NCBI RefSeq assembly: GCF_900106595.1
Contig: NZ_FNNC01000002.1
Span: 62,001 to 126,000 of the forward strand
Length of the DNA: 64,000 bases
Direction: 5' to 3'
From: Marinococcus luteus
GTDB lineage: Bacteria; Bacillota; Bacilli; Bacillales; Marinococcaceae
Below the pieces are notes generated by a model. It did no database searches, was not told the DNA's origin, and was given only the letters and a program-made list of their open reading frames with translations. This document shows positions 7,093 through 15,573 of the stretch, in pieces. Position numbers and translations under genes: made by a program. Each line of letters begins with the position of its first letter. The first letter of the stretch is position 1.

Positions 7093-7195
7093 GTGTTATT
7101 TAAATGATGTTCGATTAAAATCGCTACATCCTGTAGCAACACCGAACTGACCCGCCTCGTGCGGGCCCTAACACTGAATAAAATCCGGAAAAGAT

Positions 7196-9583: not shown

Positions 9584-10691
9584 GAATGACTCCTCCCTTT
9601 CGTATTTGAGGATCTACGGCAAACAGGTGCTTCCAGTCTTCGCGGACGCTTTTTCCCCCGATCCGGGCAGCCATCCAGCTCCCACTCAGCGCTGAAAGCA
9701 AAATACCGTTTCTGTAATGGCCGGTCATTACCCACAGGCCCCGGTCGGTCTGTCCCATATACGGCAGCCCGTCTCCTGTCTGCGGCCGCACACCGCTCCA
9801 AAACCTTTCAATATTCGCATCTTTAAGCTCCGGCACTAAATGAACAGCTGCTTTCATCAGCTCCTGTATCGAGGCTACAGTGACTCCTGTACTCGAGTCC
9901 CCGGGTTTTTCTGAAGCGCCGATAAAGATTTCCCCGTCTTTTTTCGGAACAATATACACCTGCGGAGTGTGCAGTGTGTACCTCAAATTCCCCTGGGGCA
10001 TGCGTACGGACAAGCACTCCCCTTTCACCGGGTAGAGCGTGAACTCCTTTTCATTAAGCAGCGCCGCTCCGGCACTCCCACCGGTAAAAACAACTTCTTC
10101 CGCTTCAACAACTCCTTCATTTGTTTTCACGCCATAGACCCGCCCGTCAGCTTCTAAAATACGGTCAACTGAAGTGTTTTCCCGTATGATTGTTCCGCAG
10201 GCCTTTGCTGCTTTGGCAAGAGCCGTTGTCCATTCATAGGCACGGAGCTGTCCGTCTTTCGGAATGGACCAGACGCCCCGGATGTTTTCGGAAAGCGCCG
10301 GTTCTCTGCGCAGTGCTTCACGTGCCGGAAGCCACTCCGCTCCATAGCCGTGCCCCGCAGCACGCTGGTATTTTACTTCTTCCGTCTTATGCCATACAGG
10401 CTTCAGCATCCCGTTGTTCACGTAGGAGACGTCCATTCCACTGAGCGCTTCCACTTCAGGGACCAGCTCTTCAAACAGCGCCCGGCTTTCCAGGGCGAAT
10501 TCCTGAAAAAGGCCAGTCCCCTCCCATTCGGACTGTGCTCCGAGCATGCCGGCAGCCGCTTTTGATGCTCCGGAAGCGATGGTTTCTTTTTCGATAACCA
10601 TTACACGATGGCCGCGTTTGCTTAACTGATACGCAAGCGAGCACCCCTGCACGCCTGCACCTACAATAAGAACTTCTGTATCAGCCTTCAT
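9567..10691 (-). CDS. thiO: ThiO, glycine oxidase
   Basis: FAD enzyme that oxidises glycine to the imine used by ThiG, with O2 as acceptor. The 374-residue protein opens with the FAD Rossmann loop VLIVGAGVQGCSLAYQL, followed by VIEKETIASGASKAAAGML, and ends with the DAO-type GHYRNGILLS signature (near residue 328). Length fits B. subtilis ThiO (369). ATG 10691 is chosen because AAGGAG lies 8 nt upstream; GTG/ATG codons at 10700 and 10697 are too close to that SD. It overlaps tenI by 11 bp. An O2-dependent ThiO, not ThiH, marks this as an aerobic thiazole route. Confidence 0.95.
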   Translation of the reverse strand: MKADTEVLIVGAGVQGCSLAYQLSKRGHRVMVIEKETIASGASKAAAGMLGAQSEWEGTGLFQEFALESRALFEELVPEVEALSGMDVSYVNNGMLKPVWHKTEEVKYQRAAGHGYGAEWLPAREALRREPALSENIRGVWSIPKDGQLRAYEWTTALAKAAKACGTIIRENTSVDRILEADGRVYGVKTNEGVVEAEEVVFTGGSAGAALLNEKEFTLYPVKGECLSVRMPQGNLRYTLHTPQVYIVPKKDGEIFIGASEKPGDSSTGVTVASIQELMKAAVHLVPELKDANIERFWSGVRPQTGDGLPYMGQTDRGLWVMTGHYRNGILLSALSGSWMAARIGGKSVREDWKHLFAVDPQIRKGGVIHADHA

Positions 10692-11292
10692 TGTCATCAC
10701 TCCTTAACCGGGTTCTGAGCTCTTCGGCTGCTTTTCCAGGTTCTTCCGCCTCATAAAAATACGCAATGGCTGCCACCCCGGACGCTCCGCAGTTTATACA
10801 CTCCGCTGCTTTGCCCGCATCAATTCCCCCAATGGCAATCACGGGGATGCGCACACTTTCCGCCACCGCTTTTAACGCCCGGACTCCGCGCGGCGCTTTC
10901 CCCGGTTTACTGCCGGAGGCAAACACATGACCAAAATACAGCCATGATGCCCCCTCCTGTTCGCTTCTTTCCGCTGCCCCTGCAGAGTGTATGGACTGCC
11001 CCCAGCCTACAGACACCGGATAGACCGTACGACGCTCGGGCAGGTGAGTACCGGCCAGCCCATACGCAGCGGCAAGCTCCGGTTCATCATTTATGATCAA
11101 TTGTTTCGGGGCGGTCCCTTCTTTTAGCGCCCACTCCACAGCCCTTTCTTTTTCACGCTTCGTCCATTCAGGTGCCCGTACGTGCACGTAATCAACAACC
11201 CCTGTCAACTCCCTCGTTTTTTCCCACCAAGTGTTCACCGTTATATCCGGCGGCGATACTGCATGTATGCGCGGCTTCGATTTGTTATCCAT
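10681..11292 (-). CDS. tenI: TenI, thiazole tautomerase
   Basis: Aromatises the thiazole tautomer released by ThiG. The 203-residue TIM-barrel relative of ThiE has IHAVSPPD at the N-terminus, YVHVRAPEW, GHVFASGSKPG (around 126-136) and VIAIGGIDAG. The weak match to ThiE active-site motifs and the operon position before thiO support TenI over thiamin-phosphate synthase. ATG 11292 follows at once the T-run of a terminator hairpin whose 3-prime arm contains the AAGGAGG SD (7-nt spacing). First gene of the operon, under two TPP riboswitches. Confidence 0.88.
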   Translation of the reverse strand: MDNKSKPRIHAVSPPDITVNTWWEKTRELTGVVDYVHVRAPEWTKREKERAVEWALKEGTAPKQLIINDEPELAAAYGLAGTHLPERRTVYPVSVGWGQSIHSAGAAERSEQEGASWLYFGHVFASGSKPGKAPRGVRALKAVAESVRIPVIAIGGIDAGKAAECINCGASGVAAIAYFYEAEEPGKAAEELRTRLRSDDNEG

Positions 11293-11321
11293 AAAAAAAC
11301 CTCCTTCCAGAAGGAAGGAGG
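11293..11321 (-). terminator. Riboswitch terminator that also holds the tenI SD
   Basis: Perfect 9-bp stem CCTCCTTCC / GGAAGGAGG with a 4-nt loop and T7, followed directly by the tenI ATG. AAGGAGG of the descending arm is the tenI SD, so the same hairpin can end transcription and mask the ribosome site. The aptamer strand at 11350-11358 (GGAGGGAAG in the RNA sense) can pair with the ascending arm and act as antiterminator. Confidence 0.85.
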
Positions 11322-11344
11322 CTGCCCGTTAAAAGGTTCAACAT

Positions 11345-11430
11345 GGCTGCTTCCCTCCGCTGGCTCTCCAGATCAGGTTCAAAGGGTTCCGGATAGTTCT
11401 CCGGTCTCAGCCTCAGCAGGCACCCCCAGC
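11345..11430 (-). promoter_or_regulatory. TPP riboswitch 2 (gene-proximal aptamer)
   Basis: Minus strand carries the full THI-element: GGGGGTGCC, GCTGAGA, ACCCTTTGAACCTGATCTGG, CCAGCGGAGGGAAGC, closed by P1 GCTG/CAGC. It senses thiamin pyrophosphate and feeds the terminator at 11293-11321. Confidence 0.95.
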
Positions 11431-11449
11431 AAATATAATATTTTCCCAC

Positions 11450-11480
11450 AAAAAACCCCGCCTTCGTTAGAAAGCGGGGG
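11450..11480 (-). terminator. Terminator of TPP riboswitch 1
   Basis: Stem CCCCGC / GCGGGG with an internal loop followed by T6, between the two aptamers. GGGGAAGAGAT from the end of aptamer 1 can pair with ATCTCCCC ahead of this stem, a likely antiterminator. Confidence 0.85.
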
Positions 11481-11505
11481 AGATAGTAGTATCAGCATCT
11501 CTTCC

Positions 11506-11588
11506 CCACTTCCCTCCGCTGGTATAATCCAGATCAGGTTCAAAGGGATCAGCTTTACGCTGTCTCAGCCAACAGGCACCCCTAGTGG
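11506..11588 (-). promoter_or_regulatory. TPP riboswitch 1 (promoter-proximal aptamer)
   Basis: Second complete THI-element: AGGGGTGCC, GCTGAGA, ATCCCTTTGAACCTGATC, CCAGCGGAGGGAAGT, closed by CCACT/AGTGG. Each aptamer has its own terminator, so this is a true tandem and not a duplicated fragment. Confidence 0.95.
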
Positions 11589-11603
11589 TTCGATATTACT
11601 TAT

Positions 11604-11632
11604 ATCATAACGCGGTACTCCTCTTCCGTCAA
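11604..11632 (-). promoter_or_regulatory. Sigma-A promoter of the thiazole operon
   Basis: Minus strand TTGACG (11632-11627), exact 17-nt spacer, TATGAT (11609-11604), about 15 nt before the first TPP aptamer. Confidence 0.85.
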
Positions 11633-15439: not shown

Positions 15440-15565
15440 AAAAAACCCGGGAAGTCTTCGCAGCGAAGATCTCCCGGGTTTTTATCCCTCCGTGGCGCAA
15501 ACTATTCGTTCGCGGGTTTTCTCTCGGACCAGGCCGGCGCTGCCGCGGAACCCTAGAAAACATTC
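15440..15565 (-). promoter_or_regulatory. Guanidine-I (ykkC) riboswitch with terminator
   Basis: Minus strand shows the conserved aptamer blocks CTAGGGTTCCGC, CTGGTCCGAGAG, AAAACC, ACGGAGGGATAAAA and CCCGGGAGA. The last block starts a strong terminator (15440-15483: ACCCGGGA / TCCCGGGT plus T6). Bound guanidinium should keep the terminator open and turn ykkCD on. Confidence 0.95.
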
Positions 15566-15573
15566 TGCCTCCC

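Follow-up and report, generated by a model that had tools for sequence, protein, structure and literature searches.

The second of two tandem TPP riboswitch units in front of the thiazole-branch thiamine operon of Marinococcus is probably an OFF-switch with a dual expression platform, in which a single hairpin is predicted to act on both the transcription and the translation of tenI. The leader lies in the window, the whole 64,000-nt stretch of DNA from the salt-loving bacterium Marinococcus luteus that was analyzed, and reads on the minus strand in the order promoter-like site, aptamer 1, terminator 1, aptamer 2, terminator 2, T7, and tenI ATG, with the following features:

11604..11632, minus strand: promoter-like site (TTGACG, 17-nt spacer, TATGAT), 11 nt upstream of aptamer 1
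11494..11593, minus strand: TPP aptamer 1 (RF00059, 81.8 bits, cut-off 54.3)
11450..11479, minus strand: terminator 1 (stem 11479-11456, then T6)
11335..11437, minus strand: TPP aptamer 2 (RF00059, 65.8 bits, cut-off 54.3)
11350..11358, minus strand: strand 1, the aptamer 2 3' strand, GGAGGGAAG (8 of 9 positions pair with 11321-11313)
11313..11358, minus strand: predicted antiterminator hairpin, 19 pairs (-22.2 kcal/mol, z -4.0)
11313..11321, minus strand: strand 2, the ascending arm CCTCCTTCC (anti-SD)
11309..11312, minus strand: terminator 2 loop, TTCT
11300..11308, minus strand: strand 3, the descending arm GGAAGGAGG, which is the tenI SD (SD duplex within the hairpin)
11293..11299, minus strand: T7, terminator U-tract and SD-ATG spacer together
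10681..11292, minus strand: tenI, ATG 11292-11290 (Pfam TMP-TENI, 1.4e-26)

Both aptamers exceed the RF00059 gathering score and carry the core TPP motifs. The tandem arrangement, in which one operon is preceded by two aptamers with an expression platform apiece, occurs in all five Marinococcus genomes compared (our own and four others of the genus). Downstream lies the operon tenI-thiO-thiS-thiG-thiF, the thiazole branch of thiamine biosynthesis; its genes match Pfam TMP-TENI, DAO, ThiG, and ThiF, with the DAO-matching gene taken as thiO and a 66-aa ORF occupying the position of thiS, making it a candidate by position. The tenI frame has no start codon upstream of ATG 11292, and the TenI N-terminus is alike in all five genomes. 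The promoter-like site is backed by its position rather than its score, as the region holds three such sites where shuffles predict 3.7; its second hexamer differs in L007. A 1,020 bp query searched against plasmids gave no match. Elsewhere in the window, a guanidine-I riboswitch (RF00442, 83.5 bits) occupies 15469-15567 on the minus strand; two small ORFs downstream of it (15371-15033 and 15033-14713) may encode guanidinium exporters. A Bacillaceae-1 RNA (RF01690, 67.6 bits) lies at 7099-7165 on the plus strand.

The hairpin at 11321-11300 reads CCUCCUUCC-UUCU-GGAAGGAGG, and exactly T7 separates it from the tenI ATG. Its stem has nine pairs, extendable to 11 (11323-11298), and in this longer form folds at -19.0 kcal/mol (z -5.1), a value equaled by none of 200 shuffles; a stable stem-loop with a U-tract is thus present, as expected of an intrinsic terminator. 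The same 3' arm holds the SD. A sequence-only reading of this DNA had described the AAGGAGG SD as the descending arm of the second terminator with the ATG directly after its T7, and this anatomy was borne out: the whole SD falls in the 11308-11300 arm, its duplex with the 16S tail (-13.5 kcal/mol) lies wholly inside the hairpin, and the start codon stands 7 nt past the arm. This last hairpin before tenI looks built to stop transcription and to cover the SD when TPP is high.

Pairing between the aptamer and this hairpin supplies a predicted alternative. The earlier claim that 11358-11350 pairs with the ascending arm at eight of nine positions, one of them G-U, was reproduced. It had been offered as a simple switch for both levels, which holds for the pairing itself but understates its extent, since the full alternative is a 19-pair antiterminator at 11358-11313 that excludes the terminator. 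This structure is made up of seven pairs (GGAGGGA with UCCUUCC), a G-C and a C-G pair, GCC with GGC, and a seven-pair inner hairpin. None of 200 shuffles folded as well as its -22.2 kcal/mol, so it clearly beats chance; the 67-nt segment 11358-11292 stands out less when taken whole (z -2.8, matched by 4 of 200 shuffles). The bare 11-nt duplex between arm and strand is only moderately above chance, with 8.5% of 200 shuffled arms pairing equally well or better, as did 3% of 95 arms from other loci with the aptamer strand. Across 96 family loci, swapping arms hardly altered the score (median -9.8 kcal/mol for a locus's own pairing vs -9.4 swapped), and 24 of the 96 had an arm equaled by at most 5% of shuffled arms. 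As the short duplex score is a poor antiterminator test in general, we relied here on folding of the nascent chain.

Without ligand, the nascent RNA formed about eight antiterminator pairs when its 3' end lay at 11312-11306 and about six at 11303; the terminator won from 3' end 11300 on. Unit 1 follows the same order, with the 3' strand of aptamer 1 competing as antiterminator against terminator 1. The ligand-free full-length RNA favors the terminator, by 3.9 kcal/mol in a 168-nt fold and 7.2 kcal/mol in a 198-nt fold, and the ON state must therefore be held kinetically. The antiterminated mRNA would then be a held state that could refold to the masked form, a possible source of translational effect separate from termination. 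When the antiterminator was enforced in the full-length fold, individual SD bases were only 2-67% unpaired, because they find other partners.

These structures suggest the following course of events. At low TPP, the 3' strand of aptamer 2 (GGAGGGAAG...) would capture CCUCCUUCC in the long antiterminator, RNA polymerase would read on, and the SD GGAAGGAGG, free of the ascending arm, would leave tenI translatable. With TPP bound, the aptamer would retain its 3' strand, CCUCCUUCC would pair with GGAAGGAGG, and transcription would end in T7 before the AUG. A transcript that leaked through with the hairpin formed would have its SD enclosed in a stem of -19 kcal/mol, and its translation should be poor. 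Three elements of this course are inferred from the anatomy: binding of TPP, termination, and how strongly translation is affected. The earlier suggestion that transcripts escaping termination could be shut off translationally stands in part: the hairpin suits such a role, but RNAs that escape by antitermination lie outside the mask, since their ascending arm is occupied. The mask would thus act only where an RNA has leaked through in the terminator fold or an mRNA refolds afterwards. Within the reach of sequence and folding, the anatomy supports an SD-masking terminator for which the aptamer 3' strand would serve as antiterminator.

Both aptamers and both terminators are kept in all five Marinococcus genomes, as are the alternative folds, antiterminator and terminator 2. 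Only two of 67 columns vary across 11358-11292, both in M. halophilus (G001), and each substitution turns a wobble into a Watson-Crick pair. The two competing stems carry one such change apiece, with pairing preserved. As the alignment holds two distinct rows among five genomes and no compensatory double changes, covariation is no real test here, and conservation agrees only weakly with the model. The aptamers, the hairpins, their mutually exclusive pairings, the SD position, and this conservation in the genus are all apparent from sequence and computation.

We then considered how unusual the arrangement is. The pattern GGAGG-N0-2-T5-N0-4-ATG has 19 sites in the M. luteus genome, so a T-rich spacer between SD and ATG is unremarkable by itself. 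GGAGG is a predicted hairpin arm at six of them. Of these, tenI alone starts an ORF of more than nine codons; the other five look like ordinary terminators followed by a chance ATG. By this one narrow pattern, no other such site in the genome precedes a real gene. A tighter pattern with GGAAGGAGG gave 15 sites in a sample of 150 genomes of the order, own genome included, of which only our own site combined a strong hairpin with an upstream TPP core. The L187 site among these has a weak hairpin, and just downstream of its GGAAGGAGG-T-rich-ATG stretch, at L187:1594-1664 (+), the sequence matches sbrA, an sRNA family of Listeria (RF01489, 70.1 bits). Within the family, the exact hairpin plus T5 occurs in five of 29 genomes, the five Marinococcus, at one place each.

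The looser layout is recurrent in the family. Searches of the 29 genomes yielded 133 RF00059 matches, and 122 were examined after leaving out eight tandem-leader aptamers of the four other Marinococcus genomes and three L003 orthologues. Platforms were parsed for 112 of the 122, the other ten being missed by the core pattern. An SD-like stretch in a terminator-like arm was flagged for 30 of the 122, although automatic calling was noisy: L002 and OWN2 are one hairpin counted twice, and several flags rest on TTG or GTG starts judged false by eye. Inspection by eye left thirteen credible dual leaders, namely eleven ThiT leaders (L043, L046, L075, L085, L087, L096, L106, L109, L113, L116, and L127), L040, and the present one, with L044 (tenI, start uncertain), L033, and L125 undecided. 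Three of the eleven ThiT leaders have GTG starts, and all nine of the ThiT genes scanned against Pfam matched Thia_YuaJ. Like the tenI leader, ThiT leaders such as L043, L075, and L109 place an SD, GAAAGGGG or AAAAGGGG, in the 3' arm of a hairpin behind a TPP aptamer, with a T-rich tail and a start codon 6-12 nt on; they differ in having weaker hairpins (-6.1 to -12.7 kcal/mol), a weaker SD (about -8 kcal/mol), a transporter gene, and a single aptamer. Of the thirteen SDs, that of the present leader is the strongest (-13.5 vs about -8 kcal/mol).

Leaders of tenI itself were inspected in 17 of the 24 non-Marinococcus genomes of the family. By the RF00059 list, each has one aptamer close upstream, not two, and only L040 (genome G027) was judged credible as a dual leader. 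Its terminator ends 6 nt before the tenI ATG and is more stable than the present hairpin (-23.0 kcal/mol), and its arm holds an SD-like AAGGCGG (duplex -8.0 kcal/mol). We also note that aptamer 2 has a P5 loop of 4 nt (AGAG; AGAT in three relatives) compared to about 6 in most family aptamers, and affinity or ligand preference could therefore differ from those of aptamer 1. Shortened P5 elements with loops of about 5 nt were seen as well in the L089, L097, L102, and L107 aptamers, whose downstream proteins appeared ThiD-like by eye.

The main alternative is that the switch works on transcription only, the terminator being real and the SD overlap arising incidentally because the leader is short and its third strand looks like the purine-rich strand of the aptamer. 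Masking would carry little weight, as the transcripts that pass would mostly be antiterminated. Terminator 1 of the same leader is indeed a plain terminator, most of the 17 other tenI leaders have their SD past the terminator, and transcription attenuation is dominant in Firmicutes according to Barrick and Breaker (PMC2258182). Nevertheless, a leaked transcript in the terminator fold could hardly be freely translated, because all of its SD is base-paired within a stem of -19 kcal/mol and the start codon adjoins it; the same layout is found again at ThiT, and masking added repression in the pT181 attenuator (PMC5435934). We regard a purely transcriptional switch as rather unlikely.

Two further readings make the ribosome the sole or leading actor. 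A translation-only sequestor, in which the hairpin masks the SD and T7 is a mere non-terminating spacer, can draw on the 13 of 19 genomic sites where an SD, a T-rich spacer, and an ATG occur without a hairpin, an ordinary arrangement; stem, loop, and U-tract nevertheless have the usual form of a terminator, and unit 1 already makes this a termination leader, so that we consider this reading highly improbable. Still less probable is coupling through a leader peptide, whereby ribosomes would start at ATG 11344, using the aptamer GGAGGG as SD, and translate 19 codons through the hairpin, opening it. Such an ORF exists at 11285-11344 on the minus strand, starting 8 nt after GGAGGG and ending in a TAA (11287-11285) just past the tenI start, and the frame is open from ATG to TAA in all five Marinococcus genomes; here, coding is indistinguishable from structure, because the sequence is almost invariant. 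An ATG stands 3-12 nt past the SD-like motif in 51 of 108 family aptamers, against 7-25 in later 10-nt bins. This excess proved to be mostly composition (30 vs 20.8 expected among 77 representatives), with other triplets more enriched, and the SD-like motif is paired both in the aptamer and in the antiterminator. In two of five genomes, one extra C shifts the frame of the comparable ORF after aptamer 1, and a leader peptide read from the aptamer motif was not supported.

The dual platform that we favor belongs to a kind already known, and its novelty is low. The pT181 attenuator work is reportedly of the Westbrook and Lucks type. At pT181 repC, a terminator/RBS hairpin raised repression from 85% to 98% in reporters (PMC5435934), so such a hairpin can act on both levels. 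There, the RBS likewise sits in the 3' half of the terminator hairpin and one structure serves both levels; by analogy the tenI hairpin might do so too, although pT181 is switched by an antisense RNA, has no metabolite aptamer, and keeps 12 nt between its SD and the start codon. "Dual transcription and translation attenuation" is itself a riboswitch platform category defined by Barrick and Breaker in 2007, and the present leader does not differ from it in principle (PMC2258182); it differs in being second in a tandem and in the unusually complete SD in its arm. Tandem TPP units are likewise described, with 213 representatives given in PMC9481103 and units with thiO, thiS, thiG, and thiF in Bacillota listed in PMC12452182. 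They share with our leader two aptamers with their own platforms before Bacillota thiamine operons. Pseudo-cooperative tandems have plain terminators there, whereas the present second terminator is predicted also to mask the SD. In PMC9481103, a visible second terminator counts as evidence against the two-mechanism type of tandem; the present leader would be an exception to that criterion if the mask works. A literature search on Marinococcus together with riboswitches did not turn up a description of this leader.

What would be modestly new is the combination, in which a dual TPP unit comes after one that has a terminator only. We tentatively suggest, as a possibility we hold with less than even confidence, that the leader is a "terminate, then terminate-or-mask" gate, in which unit 1 would act on transcription only and unit 2 on transcription and, reversibly, on translation. 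The aptamer 3' strand is purine-rich and SD-like, and a terminator with a similar third strand needs little change to contain an SD, so the layout should be easy to evolve; if the gate reading is true, this would account for its repeated appearance, at ThiT and at tenI, in a single family. Dual second units would then be hidden among tandems read as pseudo-cooperative, overlooked because the second terminator is plain to see. The tenI leader is in any case a strongly predicted, clean case of a single hairpin working at two levels, and it lends itself well to measuring what SD masking contributes beyond termination. It suggests that tandem riboswitches sorted as purely transcriptional may deserve a recheck for an RBS in the second terminator.
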